Shown here piece by piece: positions 9,983 to 25,989 of a stretch of DNA of 43,528 bases. Position numbers and translations under genes: made by a program. The stretch covers positions 1 to 43,528 of the forward strand of contig JARRPX010000010.1 of the NCBI GenBank assembly GCA_037382465.1, written 5' to 3'. Origin of the DNA: Anaerolineales bacterium. Its GTDB lineage: Bacteria > Chloroflexota > Anaerolineae > Anaerolineales > E44-bin32. The notes beneath the pieces were generated by a model that saw only the letters and a program-made list of their open reading frames with translations, was not told the DNA's origin and did no database searches. Numbering within the stretch: the stretch's first letter is position 1; each line of letters opens with the position of its first letter.

Positions 9983-10011
9983 AGTCTACCGAAAGGGGTC
10001 TGAATTGTCAA
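9983..10011 (-). promoter_or_regulatory. Sigma70-like promoter of cysK-cysE
   Basis: On the minus strand TTGACA (10011-10006), a 17-base spacer and TAGACT (9988-9983). It overlaps the 3' end of lysK, and the lysK stop codon TAG is part of the -10 element. Confidence 0.8.
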
Positions 10012-11116
10012 ACGCAGCCTTCGACTCGCCGCAGCACTCCTGAAGCAATTTCTCCAACGTGAGTCGAACGACGTCGATCGAGCGCTGGAACTCATTCAGA
10101 TCGAGGTGTTCCTGCGGCGTGTGGTCCAAGCTCGAATCTCCGGGTCCGTAGGCCGCGATGGGGCAGTTCCAAACCGGTGCGACGATGTTCATGTCCGACG
10201 TTCCGGTTTTGTTGACGAAACGCGGTCGGCCGCCGTTGGAGCGGATCGCCTGCAGCAGGGCCCGTGTGAGGAAGGTGTTCTTCTCGGCCACGTGGCTGAC
10301 CTCGCGTCTCGAAAATTCGAGACGTGCCGTCCCATTCAAGGCGCGCAAGTCGTTTTCCAGTCGCTCGAGCGGCAGGTCGGGTGGCAAACGGAACACCAAC
10401 TGCATATCGGCCTGGCCATAGCAGCCCCTTTGATGGGTATTCAAACTGCGCAGCGAAGCGTCAAGACGATCGAAGACTCCGGGGCGGTCGCGGTTGAAAT
10501 CGTCTTCGTAGCGCTGCACTTCTTGCCAGAAACGAAAGGCGCATTCTGCGGGGGTCTGGAGCGGCGCAGCGGAATGCGCCAGCGCACCGGTAAAAACCCA
10601 ACGCAGCATGAGATGACCCTTGTAGCCCAGGGTGATTCTGTCCCAGCTGCTCGGTTCACCGATCAAACAGGCCTTCGGTTGAAAGATTTTCAGGGCGTTT
10701 CGAGCGCCGCGGCTGTCCGTTTCCTCACCGGTGGCTCCGATGACGATTACTCGGGTGCCGCTGGGTGGTTCCACCTGCGTGGCGGCGATGATGAACGCCG
10801 CCAGTGGGCCTTTGGCGTCCACACTGCCCCGGCCGTAGAGCACCCGGCCGTCGACGCGTACCGGGATTTCCCCGGGTACCGTGTCGATGTGGCCCAGCAG
10901 CACGATGTCCGTTTCGCCCTCGCCGCGGATGCCCACGACGCTGTTGGTTCGATCGACGTAGGCGCGCATGCCGTGATCGCCCATCCAATGCGCCAGGAAC
11001 AGGGCCGCAGTGGCTTCGTCGCCGGATGGGCTGGGGATGGATACCAGGTCGTGGATCAAGCGTTCGCGCTCATCGAGCAGCGCTGCCTCGCTTCGGGTCG
11101 GTGCGAATTCAACCAC
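9986..11116 (-). CDS. lysK: [LysW]-lysine/ornithine hydrolase (M20 family)
   Basis: 376 residues. It cleaves lysine (or ornithine) from the C-terminal glutamate of the LysW carrier, the last step of the pathway. Metal-ligand motifs of M20 peptidases are present: [18 protein letters not shown] with the bridging aspartate, the catalytic pair in [18 protein letters not shown], and a late histidine in DHTPQEH. It starts with GTG at 11116, overlapping the lysJ stop by 8 bases, with GAGG upstream. It is the last gene of the lysWXYZJK operon; the cysK promoter lies in its 3' end. Whether it acts on lysine only or on both products cannot be told from sequence. Confidence 0.92.
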
Positions 11117-12326
11117 CGTAAACCTCTTCCAACGCCTCCATGAAGGTCGTCCGGATTCGTTCCAGATCCCCTTCCGGGATGCTCAAAGGCGGCAGAAGCC
11201 GCACCACGGTCGTTCCGGCGGGTATTGCGAGCACGCCGTTTTCTGCCATGGCCTGCAGGACGGGAGTGGCGCGTCTGCGCAGCTCGATGCCGATCATCAG
11301 GCCGCGGCCGCGCACTTCGCGGATCAGCGGATGCTCGATCGAACGCAGAGAATCGAGAAACCGTTCGCCGACGTCCGCTGCTCGTTCGGGCAAGCTCTCC
11401 GCTTCGAGGACCTGAAGCGTGGCGTTCGCCGCAGCACAGACGAGCGGGTTGCCGCCAAAGGTGCTCCCGTGGGTGTGTGGTGGAAATGTCCCCAGGTCGG
11501 ATCGCCAGGCCAGGGCACCCATCGGCAGTCCGCCGGCGATGCCCTTACCGAGACAGATGAGGTCGGGGACGACGTCGTGATGTTCGTAACAGAACCAGCG
11601 TCCGGTGCGGCCCAATCCGCTTTGGATCTCGTCGAAGACGAGCAGTGCGCCGCGTTCGCTGCAAAGCGTGCGTAGTCCGCGGAGGAATTCATCCTCGATG
11701 GGATTGATGCCGCCTTCGCCCTGGAGCAATTCGACGATCACTGCGGCGGTGGAATCATTAATTGTGGCTCGCGCCGCCTCGAGATCGTTGAAGGGAACGT
11801 GTCCGAAGCCGGGTACGAGCGGCACAAACGGTTCGCGATACTTCGCGCGCCACGTTGCGGACAGGGCACCGAGCGTCCGGCCGTGGAAACAGCCTTGCAT
11901 GGCGACGATGCCAGGACGTTGAGTCAGGGCGCGCGAGAGTTTGAATGCGGCTTCGACCGCTTCCGCGCCCGAGTTGCACAGGAAATAGCGGCCGAATCTG
12001 GGCGCCAGGTGGGCCTGCAGGGATTCGTACAGACGGGCGCGTTGATCGTTGTAGAAAATTTCGGGACAGGTGACGACGCGCTCGTATTGGCGGGTGATTG
12101 CCTCCAGGATGGCCGGATGCCGGTGTCCCAACAGGCAGACTCCGTGGCCGCCGACCGCGTCGATGTACGCTTTCCCTTCGGCGTCGATCAAATGTGCGCC
12201 CTCTGCGGCGACGATGGCGATGGGCCGCTTTCCGTAAGCGCCGGATGTGTGCAGATCCTCGGAAGCGAGGATATCTGCTTGATTTGCAGCGTCTGCTGCA
12301 GCGTGTAGGACGATTTCGTTAAGCAA
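11109..12326 (-). CDS. lysJ: [LysW]-aminoadipate semialdehyde/glutamate semialdehyde transaminase
   Basis: 405 residues from a TTG start. This class-III PLP aminotransferase converts the LysW-bound semialdehyde to the LysW-bound amine. Motifs include the PLP phosphate-binding NSGAEAVEAAFKLSR, the aspartate in LLVFDEIQSGLGRTG, and the PLP lysine in CLGKGIAGGLPMGA. No ATG gives a sensible N-terminus. TTG at 12326 has GGAGGAGG 8 bases upstream and overlaps the lysZ stop by 8 bases, which decides the start. The family (ArgD/LysJ) is certain; LysJ is assigned from the operon. Confidence 0.92.
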   Translation of the reverse strand: MLNEIVLHAAADAANQADILASEDLHTSGAYGKRPIAIVAAEGAHLIDAEGKAYIDAVGGHGVCLLGHRHPAILEAITRQYERVVTCPEIFYNDQRARLYESLQAHLAPRFGRYFLCNSGAEAVEAAFKLSRALTQRPGIVAMQGCFHGRTLGALSATWRAKYREPFVPLVPGFGHVPFNDLEAARATINDSTAAVIVELLQGEGGINPIEDEFLRGLRTLCSERGALLVFDEIQSGLGRTGRWFCYEHHDVVPDLICLGKGIAGGLPMGALAWRSDLGTFPPHTHGSTFGGNPLVCAAANATLQVLEAESLPERAADVGERFLDSLRSIEHPLIREVRGRGLMIGIELRRRATPVLQAMAENGVLAIPAGTTVVRLLPPLSIPEGDLERIRTTFMEALEEVYGG

Positions 12327-13134
12327 ACCAGGTTCCTCCTCCGGCGAGCGCAGCCTGCAGCGGTTGCGGGCGTCGTCCGTCGATGATAGCGGCCTGCGCG
12401 ACACCGTTTTCCAGCGCTTCGCGCACGCTCAAGACTTTGTGTTTCATCTGGCCATCGGCCCAGGACATGGCCGTGTCCAGCTGTCCGCGCGGTACCACAT
12501 GCACCAGACTGGATTGATCTTCACAGTCGCGATACAGCCCGACGACGTTGGAAAGCATCAAGAGCATGTCGGCCGCAAGCGCTGCGGATACCGCTGCGGC
12601 GGCGCGATCGCCGTTGACGTTGAGATAGCCATCCGTTTCGCTGTAGGCCAAGGGCGGAATCACGGGTACCATGCCCTGGTCCAGGATGCTCTGGATGCGA
12701 TCCCGGTCGACTCCGATGAGACTACCGGAGTAGTCGTCATGAATCACGCGGATGCGTCCGTCGATCACGGCGCGGATGGCGCTTTTCCGCTCCCCGCGCA
12801 GGACGCAGGCTTCCGTTGTGCCGAGGCTCAGCGTCTGTACCCCGAAACCGTTCAGTTCGCGGCAGATGTCGCTGTTGAACGAAGTCACTGCGTCCACAAA
12901 GATATCGCGCATCGCGGCGTCCGTGTAACGGCTGACGAAGTTGGACGGCGAGCGCAGGTACTGCGGCGGATGGCCCATTTCGTTGGCGAGTTGATTGGCG
13001 CGCTCCGAACCGCCGTGCACCAGGACGATGCGCTGGCCCTGGGCGATCATGGCGGCGATGTCCTCGCAGATCGGACGGAGTTGGATATCTCGGGCGCCCC
13101 CGATTTTGATGACGATGAGACGATTGTTTTCCAT
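12319..13134 (-). CDS. lysZ: [LysW]-aminoadipate (or glutamate) kinase
   Basis: 271 residues. This amino acid kinase phosphorylates the LysW-bound aminoadipate. Visible motifs are the N-terminal IVIKIGGAR, VLVHGGSERANQLA in the phosphate-binding region, and YLNVNGDRAAAAVSAAL plus LMLSNVVGLY near the nucleotide site. ArgB/LysZ are close relatives; the neighbours fix the call. I chose ATG 13134 because GGGAG precedes it by 6 bases; ATG 13146 has its AGGAA directly abutting. Its stop overlaps lysJ. A gap of 43 bases separates it from lysY. Confidence 0.92.
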   Translation of the reverse strand: MENNRLIVIKIGGARDIQLRPICEDIAAMIAQGQRIVLVHGGSERANQLANEMGHPPQYLRSPSNFVSRYTDAAMRDIFVDAVTSFNSDICRELNGFGVQTLSLGTTEACVLRGERKSAIRAVIDGRIRVIHDDYSGSLIGVDRDRIQSILDQGMVPVIPPLAYSETDGYLNVNGDRAAAAVSAALAADMLLMLSNVVGLYRDCEDQSSLVHVVPRGQLDTAMSWADGQMKHKVLSVREALENGVAQAAIIDGRRPQPLQAALAGGGTWFA

Positions 13135-13177
13135 GTTTGCTCCCATTTCCTGTAAAGTGCTTTCCGTGCGTGAGCGT

Positions 13178-14215
13178 TCAGATGGGATGTAGGCCCGGGA
13201 ATTCCAGTCCCAGGCGTTCATCGAAACCGAACATCAAATTCATGGCCTGAACGGCAGTGCCCGAACCGCCTTTCATTAAATTATCCAGCGCGGCGATGAC
13301 GATCAACAGGTTCGCTTCTTGATCGTATGCAAAACCGATGTCGCAGTAATTCGAGCCGGAAAGGATCTTGGGCTCGGGGTAGCGGTAGCCACCACTGCGC
13401 TCCGCCACGAGGCGGATGAAAGGCTCCTGCTGATACGCCTGGCGGTAGCAGGCCCAGACGTCCCGAAGCTCTTCCACCTGCGCATTTTCGTTCAGGAAAC
13501 AATGTGCAGTGAGGTGTGCGCCGCGGACCAGTTCGATGGCGGTCATGGTGAGATGAATGGGGAAACCGCCCAGTTCCTGTTCGACTTCGGCCAGATGGCG
13601 GTGCCCGCTGGGGCTGTAGACGCGCACCACGCCGCTGCGTTCGGGGTGGTGCGAGCCCGGATTGACGGAAGCTCCGGCCTCCGAAGATCCGACTTTCACT
13701 TCCGCCGTGACCCGCTCGAGCCATCCGGCGTCGGCGAGCGGCCCCAGCGCAAGGTTAATCAGCGTGGCGTTGCAGCCGACTCCGGAAGCATACTGCGCTT
13801 CCTTTAATTCATCGCGATGGCGTTCCGGCAATCCGTAAACGAAGCGCGCCAACCAATCCGGCGCGGGGTGTTCCCATTCGTACCATTTCGGATAGGCTTC
13901 TTTACGGCGCAGCCTGAAATCGGCGGAACAGTCGATAATGCGCTCGGCCAACTGCGCATAACGCTCGATGTCCGCTGCAACCTCGCCGTGGGGAAGGGCG
14001 AGGAAGAGCACATCACAGTGCTGAAGATCGTCTGCGTGGCAGTAGCGTAGACCGGTAAAGCCGCGCATGTTGGGGTGCGTGCTGTGAAGGTAGCGGCCGA
14101 TCTGGCTGCGGGAGGAGACCTGCGCCAATTCCACCTGGGGGTGCAGCGTGAGTATACGTATCAATTCACCGCCCAGGTAACCCGATCCACCGACGATCGC
14201 AGCCCGGATACTCAT
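13178..14215 (-). CDS. lysY: [LysW]-aminoadipate/glutamyl phosphate reductase
   Basis: 345 residues, ArgC family. It reduces the LysW-bound acyl phosphate to the semialdehyde with NADPH. The N-terminal Rossmann motif is AAIVGGSGYLGGEL, the catalytic cysteine lies in ASGVGCNATLIN, and a late motif is LDNLMKGGSGTAVQAMNL. A conserved histidine appears in GSHHPERSGVVRVYSPSGHRH. The ATG overlaps the lysX stop by 4 bases (ATGA). Family membership is clear; LysY rather than ArgC follows from the LysW and LysX genes. Confidence 0.93.
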   Translation of the reverse strand: MSIRAAIVGGSGYLGGELIRILTLHPQVELAQVSSRSQIGRYLHSTHPNMRGFTGLRYCHADDLQHCDVLFLALPHGEVAADIERYAQLAERIIDCSADFRLRRKEAYPKWYEWEHPAPDWLARFVYGLPERHRDELKEAQYASGVGCNATLINLALGPLADAGWLERVTAEVKVGSSEAGASVNPGSHHPERSGVVRVYSPSGHRHLAEVEQELGGFPIHLTMTAIELVRGAHLTAHCFLNENAQVEELRDVWACYRQAYQQEPFIRLVAERSGGYRYPEPKILSGSNYCDIGFAYDQEANLLIVIAALDNLMKGGSGTAVQAMNLMFGFDERLGLEFPGLHPI

Positions 14216-15090
14216 ATCTGCGCCTCCCGAACGGCGGCACTTTCCGCTGCCGTCTGGAGCGCGAACTCCACGATCGCTGCGGGGATGTCGACCCCCGTGG
14301 GCTCGATGCTGTTGCGGAATTCCATCGAGTGGTTGACTTCGTTGACCAGGTAGCCGGCGTCCGTTTCAAAGAGATCGATGGCGACGATTCCGCCGCCCAC
14401 GGCGGCTGCGGCGCGTTGGGAGATGTCAGCGATTTCCCCGCTGATCTCGCAATTGCTGGCTACGCCGCCGCGCGCCGTGTTGGTGATCCAATGTTCGGAC
14501 GTGCGGTAGATGGCGCACAACGCCTGGCCGCCCACGACGAACGAGCGGATGTCACGGCCGTTGGGTTTGCGGACGAATTCCTGGACGTAACCGGTGTGGT
14601 AGGGATAATTGCCCAGCGTGAAGCGATGTTCCAGGATCGCTTCCGCCGATTCTCGATCGTTGACTTTGGTCACCAGACGCCCCCACGAACCGGTTAGCGG
14701 TTTGAGAACGGCAGGATAACCCTGATTCTCGATCGCTTGCAGAATCGAATCTTCCGTGAAGGCAATGCTGACCTGCGCCTGCGGAACGGAATGGCGCGCC
14801 AGCGCCAGCGTTGTGCTGAGTTTGTCGCTGCAGGTGCTCGCAGTGTGAAAATTGTTCAGAGTCGGAACCCCCCAGGCTTCCAGGATCTGCAGCGTGGTGA
14901 GCGTGCGGGAGCTGCTGATGCTGCGTTCGAGGATCAGATCGTACGCCAGCCAACGCGGGTCCGGATCGAGGGGATTGAGGATGAACTCCCCGTCGTTGAA
15001 CACGTCGATCTGGATATCGCGCGCTTGAAACGCTTCCATGAGAAGCTTTTCCTCGCGCCGGACCCTCGAGACGATCATGCCGATCTGCAT
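14212..15090 (-). CDS. lysX: LysW-aminoadipate (or LysW-glutamate) ligase, ATP-grasp
   Basis: 292 residues. It attaches alpha-aminoadipate (or glutamate) through its amino group to the C-terminal glutamate of LysW, protecting it through the pathway. ATP-grasp signatures include VLKPLTGSWGRLV, VQEFVRKPNGRDIRSFVVG, the NTARGG motif, and the metal-binding VAIDLFETDAGYLVNEVNHSMEFRNS. The Ala-Ser-Asn triplet after NTARGGV lies where, as I recall, LysX and ArgX differ; I do not rely on it for specificity. It starts one base after the lysW stop. Confidence 0.93.
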   Translation of the reverse strand: MQIGMIVSRVRREEKLLMEAFQARDIQIDVFNDGEFILNPLDPDPRWLAYDLILERSISSSRTLTTLQILEAWGVPTLNNFHTASTCSDKLSTTLALARHSVPQAQVSIAFTEDSILQAIENQGYPAVLKPLTGSWGRLVTKVNDRESAEAILEHRFTLGNYPYHTGYVQEFVRKPNGRDIRSFVVGGQALCAIYRTSEHWITNTARGGVASNCEISGEIADISQRAAAAVGGGIVAIDLFETDAGYLVNEVNHSMEFRNSIEPTGVDIPAAIVEFALQTAAESAAVREAQI

Positions 15091-15091
15091 G

Positions 15092-15262
15092 CTACTCGCC
15101 CCAGTCCTCTTCGACTTCCGGGGCCAATGCCAGGGTCAGTGGGTCGAGGTCGACGATCTCCAGTTCGACGCCGCACTCGGGGCAGGGCAGGATTTCGTTC
15201 AAGACGACATCATCCGTAAGGTTGATCTCCGCTCCGCATTCTGTGCATGTTTGGTTAGACAT
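15092..15262 (-). CDS. lysW: Amino-group carrier protein LysW
   Basis: 56 residues, acidic, with a zinc-ribbon of two Cys-x2-Cys pairs (C6/C9 and C27/C30). It ends in the diagnostic EDWGE (52-56); the final Glu is the residue to which the substrate amino group is attached. The acidic surface docks onto the basic pathway enzymes in characterised homologues. ATG at 15262 has GGAGG 6 bases upstream. It is the first structural gene of the operon, so the whole pathway follows its leader and attenuators. Confidence 0.95.
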
Positions 15263-15292: not shown

Positions 15293-15332
15293 CATTGAAA
15301 TAGCCAGCGACCCTTTGGCCTGGATCGCTGGC
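15293..15332 (-). terminator. Second attenuator hairpin of the lysW leader
   Basis: On the minus strand GCCAGCGATCC (15332-15322) pairs with GGGTCGCTGGC (15313-15303), followed by a weak T-tract TATTT. It lies between leader peptide 2 and lysW. ATCCAGG in its left arm and loop (complement of 15319-15325) can instead pair with CCTGGAT at the end of peptide 2 (complement of 15367-15373). The short T-tract makes termination strength uncertain. Confidence 0.55.
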
Positions 15333-15364
15333 CTCTCATCTCCGCGTGGACGTAAGAAGCGCGC

Positions 15365-15436
15365 TTATCCAGGACCCGGTTCAGGTTGCTTGAGGCACTT
15401 CTTCTTCAAGATGGAGATGGTTTCTCGGTTCGTCAT
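15365..15436 (-). CDS. Lysine leader peptide 2 (23 aa) of the lysW operon
   Basis: The sequence is MTNRETISIL, then KKKCLK, then QPEPGPG. Three consecutive AAG codons and a fourth after CL give four lysines in six positions. It lies between the first terminator (15459-15482) and the second hairpin (15293-15332). The antiterminator strand CCTGGAT overlaps its last two codons and the T of the stop, so a ribosome that reaches the stop would block it and one stalled on the lysines would not. No good ribosome-binding site is visible. I interpret it as the second of two attenuation modules in series. Confidence 0.65.
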   Translation of the reverse strand: MTNRETISILKKKCLKQPEPGPG

Positions 15437-15458
15437 GTTTTAGAGACTCGTATTTAAG

Positions 15459-15482
15459 AAAAAACCCCGCTCGTCTGGCGGG
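15459..15482 (-). terminator. First attenuator terminator of the lysW leader
   Basis: On the minus strand CCCGC (15482-15478) pairs with GCGGG around a short loop, followed by six T (15464-15459). GCCAGAC in its left arm and loop (complement of 15473-15479) can instead pair perfectly with GTCTGGC just before the stop of leader peptide 1 (complement of 15519-15525). Confidence 0.75.
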
Positions 15483-15515
15483 TCCTAGGCAAAACCATTT
15501 CTTTGCAGGCAAAGA

Positions 15516-15584
15516 CTAGCCAGACAGGCTCCTACCCGGCTTCTTGCTGCACTTCTTCCCAGAATTATTGATTTTATTGTTCAT
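15516..15584 (-). CDS. Lysine leader peptide 1 (22 aa) of the lysW operon
   Basis: The sequence is MNNKINNSG, then KKCSKK, then PGRSLSG, with five lysines (K4, K10, K11, K14, K15). The ATG is only about four bases from the predicted transcription start, so the message may be leaderless. The last codons (TCT GGC TAG) contain the antiterminator strand. A ribosome stalled on the AAG pairs leaves this strand free, and one at the stop covers it, which is classical attenuation logic. The same TGTCTGGCTAG ending occurs in the pck leader peptide (25593-25664). Confidence 0.75.
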   Translation of the reverse strand: MNNKINNSGKKCSKKPGRSLSG

Positions 15585-15594
15585 GATCCGGCAT

Positions 15595-15623
15595 AGATTA
15601 ACAAATATTGGTGCAATTGTCAA
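15595..15623 (-). promoter_or_regulatory. Sigma70-like promoter of the lysW operon
   Basis: On the minus strand TTGACA (15623-15618), a 17-base spacer and TAATCT (15600-15595). The -35 lies inside a palindrome (15615-15630). Confidence 0.85.
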
Positions 15624-24886: not shown

Positions 24887-24926
24887 AATAAATAAACCCT
24901 CTCTCATCGTTGGGGACGAGAGAGGG
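24887..24926 (-). terminator. T-box terminator of the trp leader
   Basis: On the minus strand CCCTCTCTCGTC (24926-24915) pairs with GATGAGAGAGGG (24908-24897), one G-T pair, followed by TTTATTTATT. Its left arm overlaps the 3' end of the T-box sequence, as in standard T-box switches. Confidence 0.85.
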
Positions 24927-24974
24927 TTCCCGTGGTGCCACCCCAGTTAGGCTCGATGTTCCCGGGTACCTATG

Positions 24975-25001
24975 AAAAAACCCGCCGGTGACGACGACGG
25001 G
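24975..25001 (-). terminator. Extra terminator-like hairpin nested in the T-box
   Basis: On the minus strand CCCGTCG (25001-24995), a loop and CGGCGGG, followed by six T (24980-24975). It is enclosed by ATGTTCCC/GGGAACAT (25010-25003 with 24963-24956), i.e. it forms the tip of stem III. It may act as a second, upstream termination point. Confidence 0.5.
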
Positions 25002-25245
25002 TGGGAACATGCCAGCCTCACTTATTCCGGTACGGCGATGATGCGATCATCGCTTATACCTTCTGCCTCGATAACGGCGGCTTTCCGGCGCGGACTACTC
25101 GGTTTCAACCTTTCGGCCGGCAGCTCTGGGGTCCATTCTCCGCTGGCGTCGGGGCGGGATTCTCATCCATCTCCCGCTTTCTGTGCCTTCGTTTCAGCAG
25201 ATACTCTTCCCCTTCACGGCTTTTAGTGGATATTCGGTTAGGACG

Positions 25246-25553: not shown

Positions 25554-25582
25554 TTGACAGCGAAGTTCTTTTTTGCTACTCT
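25554..25582 (+). promoter_or_regulatory. Sigma70-like promoter of the pck operon
   Basis: TTGACA (25554-25559), a 17-base spacer and TACTCT (25577-25582). The leader peptide ATG at 25593 lies about four bases after the expected start of transcription. Confidence 0.8.
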
Positions 25583-25592
25583 CATCCCAATA

Positions 25593-25664
25593 ATGATCGA
25601 TAAAAACGTTACTGTTCTTCGTGGTCGTAAGCCATTGCCAGCTTCTATGGGGGTGTCTGGCTAG
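25593..25664 (+). CDS. Leader peptide (23 aa) upstream of pckA
   Basis: The sequence is MIDKNVTVL, RGRKPLP, ASMGVSG. It begins almost at the predicted transcription start (leaderless) and ends TGTCTGGCTAG, the same ending as lysine leader peptide 1. TGTCTGGC (25654-25661) can pair perfectly with GCCAGACA (25699-25706), which overlaps the left arm of the terminator at 25693. The codons 8 to 13 positions before the stop, where the lysine codons sit in the lys leader, here read G, R, K, P, L, P. The stalling amino acid is therefore unclear (Arg/Lys or Pro). Confidence 0.6.
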   Translation: MIDKNVTVLRGRKPLPASMGVSG

Positions 25665-25692
25665 TTGCTTGCGTGTATTGAAACACACCACC

Positions 25693-25722
25693 AACCCGCC
25701 AGACATATATGGCGGGTTTTTT
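25693..25722 (+). terminator. Attenuator terminator of the pck leader
   Basis: AACCCGCCA (25693-25701) pairs perfectly with TGGCGGGTT (25710-25718), and the T-run reaches 25722. It is a strong intrinsic terminator 270 bases before pckA, directly after the leader peptide. Confidence 0.85.
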
Positions 25723-25833
25723 ATTTGTGAGTGCGACATGCGGATTTTTGGAATGGGAAATTGGAAGCGGGAAGGTAAGGCGCCAGAGAGGAGACTCGGA
25801 TGGTCGTGGATTCCCAGTTCTCGGGAACATCGT

Positions 25834-25871
25834 CGGCGGTCCGGGAAAAAATACTACGACCGCCGCTTTTT
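25834..25871 (+). terminator. Second terminator-like hairpin in the pck leader
   Basis: CGGCGGTC (25834-25841) pairs with GACCGCCG (25858-25865), then C and five T. A small open frame, 25800-26003, crosses it; its ATG has AGAGGAG 6 bases upstream and it overlaps the pckA start. The rest of 25723-25989 holds nothing else I can support. Confidence 0.5.
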
Positions 25872-25989
25872 ATAAGTCGGGGTCGTGGTGGTTCCTGTCG
25901 GTATCGGTTCAAGGTGATTCGAAATTGGGTTAAAAAACGTTTGAAGCACGAAATCAGCAAGCAGCCTAACAGACCATGGGGACGAGGCA

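Follow-up and report, generated by a model that had tools for sequence, protein, structure and literature searches.

Two putative lysine attenuators in series ahead of the LysW operon of an Anaerolineales bacterium, and related leaders in Chloroflexota

Introduction

How is the lysW operon of this Anaerolineales bacterium controlled, and does the operon make lysine? The locus lies in a stretch of 43,528 nucleotides (contig JARRPX010000010.1, called the window here), and a preliminary description had read two lysine attenuators in series in the leader of lysW; the gene upstream of this leader is serA. Control of lysine genes at the RNA level is commonly attributed to the L-box riboswitch, and ribosome-mediated attenuation is established in enteric bacteria. 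Our answer, held with a probability of about 0.85, is that two ribosome-mediated lysine attenuators in series would sense lysyl-tRNA supply and control lysW-X-Y-Z-J-K.

Organization of the leader

All elements of the leader were found on the minus strand, where the order from 15623 to 15262 was promoter, leader frame 1, hairpin 1, leader frame 2, hairpin 2 and lysW, as had been described. The promoter (15595-15623) was composed of a -35 hexamer TTGACA (15623-15618), a 17-nt spacer and a -10 hexamer TAATCT (15600-15595), which is weak (3/6). A strict promoter scan of the window listed no promoter here, and relatives carried TTGACA-16/17-TATAAT at the equivalent position.

Leader frame 1 (15516-15584, 22 codons, MNNKINNSGKKCSKKPGRSLSG and a stop codon), for which equivalent frames existed in relatives, had its ATG 10 nt past the -10 hexamer and was nearly leaderless. 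The reading frame stayed open upstream to 15899, so the start codon was placed from the promoter and the relatives. Eleven loci, one of them the window's, had a first-frame ATG 7-10 nt past the -10 hexamer, so that, going by the promoter consensus, translation would begin almost at the first transcribed base. The frame held the lysine codon run KKCSKK (15540-15557), and within its last codons lay antiterminator strand 1, GTCTGGC (15519-15525), which was an exact complement of GCCAGAC (15479-15473) in the left arm and loop of terminator 1 (duplex z -2.84 against shuffles). Terminator 1 (15459-15482) consisted of a 5-bp G+C stem, CCCGC-loop-GCGGG, followed by GTTTTTT, and qualified as an intrinsic terminator.

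Leader frame 2 (15365-15436, 23 codons, MTNRETISILKKKCLKQPEPGPG and a stop codon) was identified from the sequence and from relatives. Its lysine codon run KKKCLK (15389-15406) can pair with a strand after the stop codon (15362-15355; 1:2 pairing, z -4.4). Antiterminator strand 2, CCTGGAT (15367-15373), overlapped the stop codon and was an exact complement of ATCCAGG (15325-15319), so both 7-nt complements of the preliminary description were confirmed. Hairpin 2 (15297-15333) had a 12-bp stem at about 15333-15302, which contained ATCCAGG, and then ATTTC to 15297.

Translation, stalling, termination and the serial logic, as we infer them from these elements, would run as follows. In each module RNA polymerase would be trailed by a ribosome on the short lysine-rich frame. 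When lysine is ample, the ribosome at the stop codon would mask the antiterminator strand, the hairpin would form and transcription would stop; when lysine is short, the ribosome would stall on the Lys codons, and the antiterminator would pair with the hairpin's left arm and loop, giving read-through. Because the polymerase must pass both modules, their basal read-through rates would multiply.

An unlikely reading, though the strongest of the alternatives, is that only module 1 attenuates transcription in the window genome; module 2 would then be decayed or have another role, for example in weak pausing, Rho-dependent termination or RNA stability. Frame 2 had no clear Shine-Dalgarno sequence in the window genome, and hairpin 2, with a strong stem and the weak U-tract ATTTC, was a weak canonical terminator there, which qualifies the second of the two terminators proposed earlier. 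The U-tracts of second hairpins were poor in family relatives too, but good in more distant relatives. In addition, frame 2 and its lysine run were intact, the antiterminator duplex of module 2 had a z of -3.16 against shuffles, and CCTGGAT/ATCCAGG was a compensated variant of the usual TCTGG/CCAGA, all of which speaks against this reading.

Lysine made up 2.9% of the residues in 22 window proteins, against 4-5 lysines per 22-23 residues in the leader frames, and the probability that a given 6-codon stretch holds at least four Lys codons was about 1e-5. Among the 315 short frames scanned in the window, only frame 2 had such a stretch; frame 1, being open further upstream, did not belong to this set. 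This estimate counts for much less than the conservation in relatives.

Product of the lysW operon

A GGAGG sequence (15273-15269) stood ahead of lysW (15092-15262, minus strand), which encodes a carrier protein of 56 aa with an EDWGE end (TIGR01206, 68.7 bits, cut-off 53.2). It was followed on the same strand by lysX (14212-15090; TIGR02144, 316 bits, cut-off 275.6), and then by lysY, lysZ, lysJ and lysK (9986-14215), which were all above a curated cut-off and matched argC/lysY, [LysW]-aminoadipate kinase, the argD family and [LysW]-lysine hydrolase. With the order lysW-lysX-lysY-lysZ-lysJ-lysK, the full LysW/alpha-aminoadipate gene set including the EDWGE end was present.

The earlier claim that this pathway makes lysine was supported, with one gap. 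No lysA above cut-off was found in any genome of the window's family, so the diaminopimelate route seems to lack its usual final step; ArgJ adjoined ArgH in the window genome, so arginine does not need LysW. Meanwhile, a dedicated homocitrate synthase (TIGR02146) was not found in the window genome (a 95%-complete assembly), where LeuA and CimA were the only matches, and the operon is therefore called lysine-type by its genes and leader. Homocitrate synthase was above cut-off in only one family member (G019). Candidate routes to aminoadipate in the window genome are a bifunctional LeuA and uptake, or the homocitrate synthase may have been lost from the assembly. Four genomes (G000, G015, G017 and G022) had a lysine-type LysW operon with lysine leaders, and neither a homocitrate synthase nor a lysA above cut-off.

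The missing homocitrate synthase would also fit an operon that makes ornithine for arginine, in which the Lys codons would just tune translation, or respond to basic amino acids as a class; some archaea do use LysW systems for ornithine (PMC10433800). This is improbable, since arginine has its own genes here and lysA is missing, LysZ and LysK were above the aminoadipate/lysine cut-offs, the leaders were rich in Lys and not in Arg, and in other genomes this leader stands before homocitrate synthase (see below). The gene content thus supports the view that the LysW pathway of the window genome would make lysine.

The LysX signature motif was considered as a separator of lysine and ornithine types and rejected; ITNTARGG was nearly invariant in all loci, those with Arg-rich leaders included, and so was uninformative. 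As a separate observation, three LysW clusters of the same order (L017, L020 and L124) had Arg-rich short frames (containing LKRARRSPK) upstream of lysW before a terminator, which suggests arginine-sensing leaders on ornithine-type LysW operons.

Conservation of the modules in relatives

The preliminary description would have been refuted by a lack of conservation in relatives, and it survived this check: relatives kept the Lys-rich frames and the paired strands, which covaried, and in most cases they kept the tandem order as well. The sample of the window's family comprised 27 genomes, six of them with a real LysX, and a Lys-rich short frame followed by a hairpin stood before lysW in all six, in tandem in 5/6. 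The sixth (L004) had a single module about 141-31 nt before lysW. Its lysine frame (MATANLPVTKKSKHQL and a stop codon) ended before a GTCCGGC strand, and a +1 shift would restore the usual SG-stop end; a natural variant and an assembly or sequencing indel are both possible.

A wider sample, made of the upstream regions of LysX matches from the order together with named genomes, gave 45 modules at 27 lysW/lysX loci, with tandem modules at 18 of the 27; the modules were partly selected by eye on lysine runs, so these counts are minima and not rates, and the related genomes are not independent. A nineteenth tandem locus (L210) came from the model scan described below. The upstream hairpin was shorter than the downstream one in 17/18 tandem loci, so the two look like module types in a conserved order instead of recent copies.

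Many leaders ended in KKPDxRSG, and the antiterminator strand, close to or at the stop codon, was often GTCTGGATAG, with its partner in the left arm or the loop of the hairpin. Such a common end could point to regulation by the nascent peptide or by small-molecule arrest (a KKP-type pause) as the role of the conserved frames, in place of a response to lysyl-tRNA shortage. Against this, the leader peptides varied widely outside the Lys codons, and the TCTGG strand was kept even when it was read in another frame or located after the stop codon, which points to a function of the RNA instead of the peptide. The conserved thing would then be the RNA and the Lys codons, and peptide-mediated arrest has little probability beside sensing of lysyl-tRNA.

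Pairing, covariation and folding

Automatic hairpin picks were wrong in several modules, and the stems were corrected by hand before the duplex test. The antiterminator duplex then had a mean z of -2.54 against dinucleotide shuffles over the 45 modules, with 84% below -1, and pairing with the own partner had a mean of -18.8 kcal/mol versus -13.8 kcal/mol with permuted partners (p<5e-5). The 1:2 pairing was rejected as a general feature, with a mean z of only -1.1 and no signal in module 1 and many others.

When upstream and downstream modules were aligned together, MAFFT blended the two hairpin types, so only the downstream type was modelled. RNAalifold yielded the antiterminator unprompted from 14 downstream modules. 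Among 38 model-aligned sequences, 95.5% of the cells of the antiterminator helix were paired and changes on both sides occurred in 20 cells versus 7.1 expected from shuffles; the alignment had been fitted to this very helix and contained a small number of weak matches, which biases these figures in its favour. Pairing fell to 45% or less when the partner was slid by one column.

The RNA left free by the ribosome was also folded in silico. For both window modules the probability of the hairpin was 0 with the ribosome on certain Lys codons and 0.98-0.99 with the ribosome on the stop codon. Over all 45 modules, 12 differed by more than 0.2 between the stalled and the released state, and none did so in the reverse direction (Wilcoxon p 7e-7). 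At folding equilibrium the terminated state prevailed in many modules of relatives even when the ribosome was stalled, which means that these modules would need to switch kinetically.

Covariance model scan and lysine genes elsewhere

A covariance model (R1) was built from the 14 downstream modules of lysW leaders. It gave one strong match in the window genome, which was the lysW leader (15412-15297); a second match (25756-25873) was weak (24.7 bits) and was not counted. In the phylum, 28 of 400 genomes were matched. In two families (f36 and f72) the gene next to the match was a homocitrate synthase above cut-off (L216) or a homoaconitase-family gene (L212), and the leaders were Lys-rich, for example AKQNKQAKKPDERSG and a stop codon. 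On one contig of 66,674 nt the element stood at 49.7 kb before homocitrate synthase, with lysX following at 54.3 kb in the same orientation; a single leader may therefore head the cluster. Judged by the genes that follow it, the association of the element with homocitrate synthase and homoaconitase-family genes is independent of lysW, although R1 contains AAG-rich columns.

The claim of lysyl-tRNA attenuation twice in series thus gained support from conservation, covariation and the association with lysine genes. It is also likely, if less so than for the window itself, that the aminoadipate/LysW pathway of Chloroflexota is under the control of an undescribed, phylum-wide family of lysine attenuators, in which a near-leaderless module with a short hairpin is often followed by a module with a longer hairpin for the same amino acid, and two serial ribosome decisions would set lysine expression.

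Two further observations concern other genes. R1 also matched three loci of another family (L227, L232 and L236, family f59) at about 1501-1620, where Gln/Arg codons replaced Lys, for example TSQQRGQQQPDRRSG and a stop codon; in L232 the gene after the match resembled an RhtB/LysE-type amino-acid exporter. These leaders may be versions of the switch adapted to a different amino acid. In the window, a look-alike leader (25554-25723, plus strand) stood before a PEP carboxykinase gene (25990), with TTGACA-17-TACTCT, an ATG 10 nt later, a frame MIDKNVTVLRGRKPLPASMGVSG and stop codon ending in TCTGGCTAG, and then AACCCGCCAGACATATATGGCGGGTTTTTT with an arm complementary to the frame end. This leader was not lysine-rich and was not seen before the same gene in relatives.

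Search for known RNA elements

No match to the lysW leader was found in Rfam at the gathering threshold (Lysine riboswitch, T-box, Trp_leader and others), the best being Trp_leader with 18.1 bits versus 41, and twelve related loci gave no match except a CRISPR repeat. A lysine riboswitch, a T-box or a chance arrangement, for which the leader position is the sole point in favour, is extremely improbable, since only chance-level matches appeared at a relaxed threshold and conservation and covariation exclude chance. Elsewhere in the window, a T-box leader (RF00230, 101 bits) was present before trpE (24909-25226, minus strand); leaders of the T-box kind and, apparently, of the ribosome-mediated kind thus occur side by side in this genome.

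Discussion

In several families of this phylum, lysine genes seem to be under peptide attenuators and not the L-box, which makes it easier to tell lysine-producing LysW operons by their sequence. The analysis also exposes a gap, namely lysine-type LysW operons in genomes that have no recognised homocitrate synthase. Two attenuators for the same signal in series raise the question whether the pair lowers leakage or widens the range compared with one. The conserved order of the modules, together with a first frame that starts almost at the transcription start, suggests selection on the arrangement itself.

The classical attenuators (trp, his, leu, thr, ilv, phe) likewise have a short frame rich in codons of the product, an antiterminator covered by the ribosome at the stop codon, and a terminator hairpin, and module 2 resembles them further in that its codon run pairs with a strand after the stop codon. 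Here, in contrast, the signal would be lysine, two modules for the same amino acid stand in series, the first frame is almost leaderless, the pairing strand lies at the stop codon, and the 1:2 pairing is not general. The preliminary description knew of no leader-peptide attenuation for LysW pathways, but the lysine cluster of Thermus thermophilus, of the alpha-aminoadipate/LysW type, is reportedly under such control (Tsubouchi et al. 2005). That system shares the pathway type and, reportedly, the leader-peptide attenuator; it belongs to another phylum, and its leader is reported to be single.

A single attenuator is normal for nutrient biosynthesis genes, and the tandem attenuators of Salmonella mgtCBR respond to two signals, ATP and proline (PMC3641672). 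The mgtCBR leader also holds two short frames, each coupled to alternative RNA structures, but its signals are distinct and it serves a virulence/Mg2+ operon (PMC3641672). The L-box lysine riboswitch and the T-box are alike in controlling amino-acid genes at the RNA level, and differ in that the lysW leader had no Rfam match to either. A survey of Actinobacteria listed lysine genes elsewhere as being under riboswitches (PMC1262725), and a Sinorhizobium frame with threonine and lysine codons was suggested as a leader peptide (PMC10117765). A search of the open-licence literature turned up neither the Chloroflexota element nor two amino-acid attenuators in series for the same signal. The mechanism itself is classical; what appears to be new is the arrangement in tandem for one signal, the first frame with almost no leader, and the family itself, which spans the phylum and is absent from Rfam.
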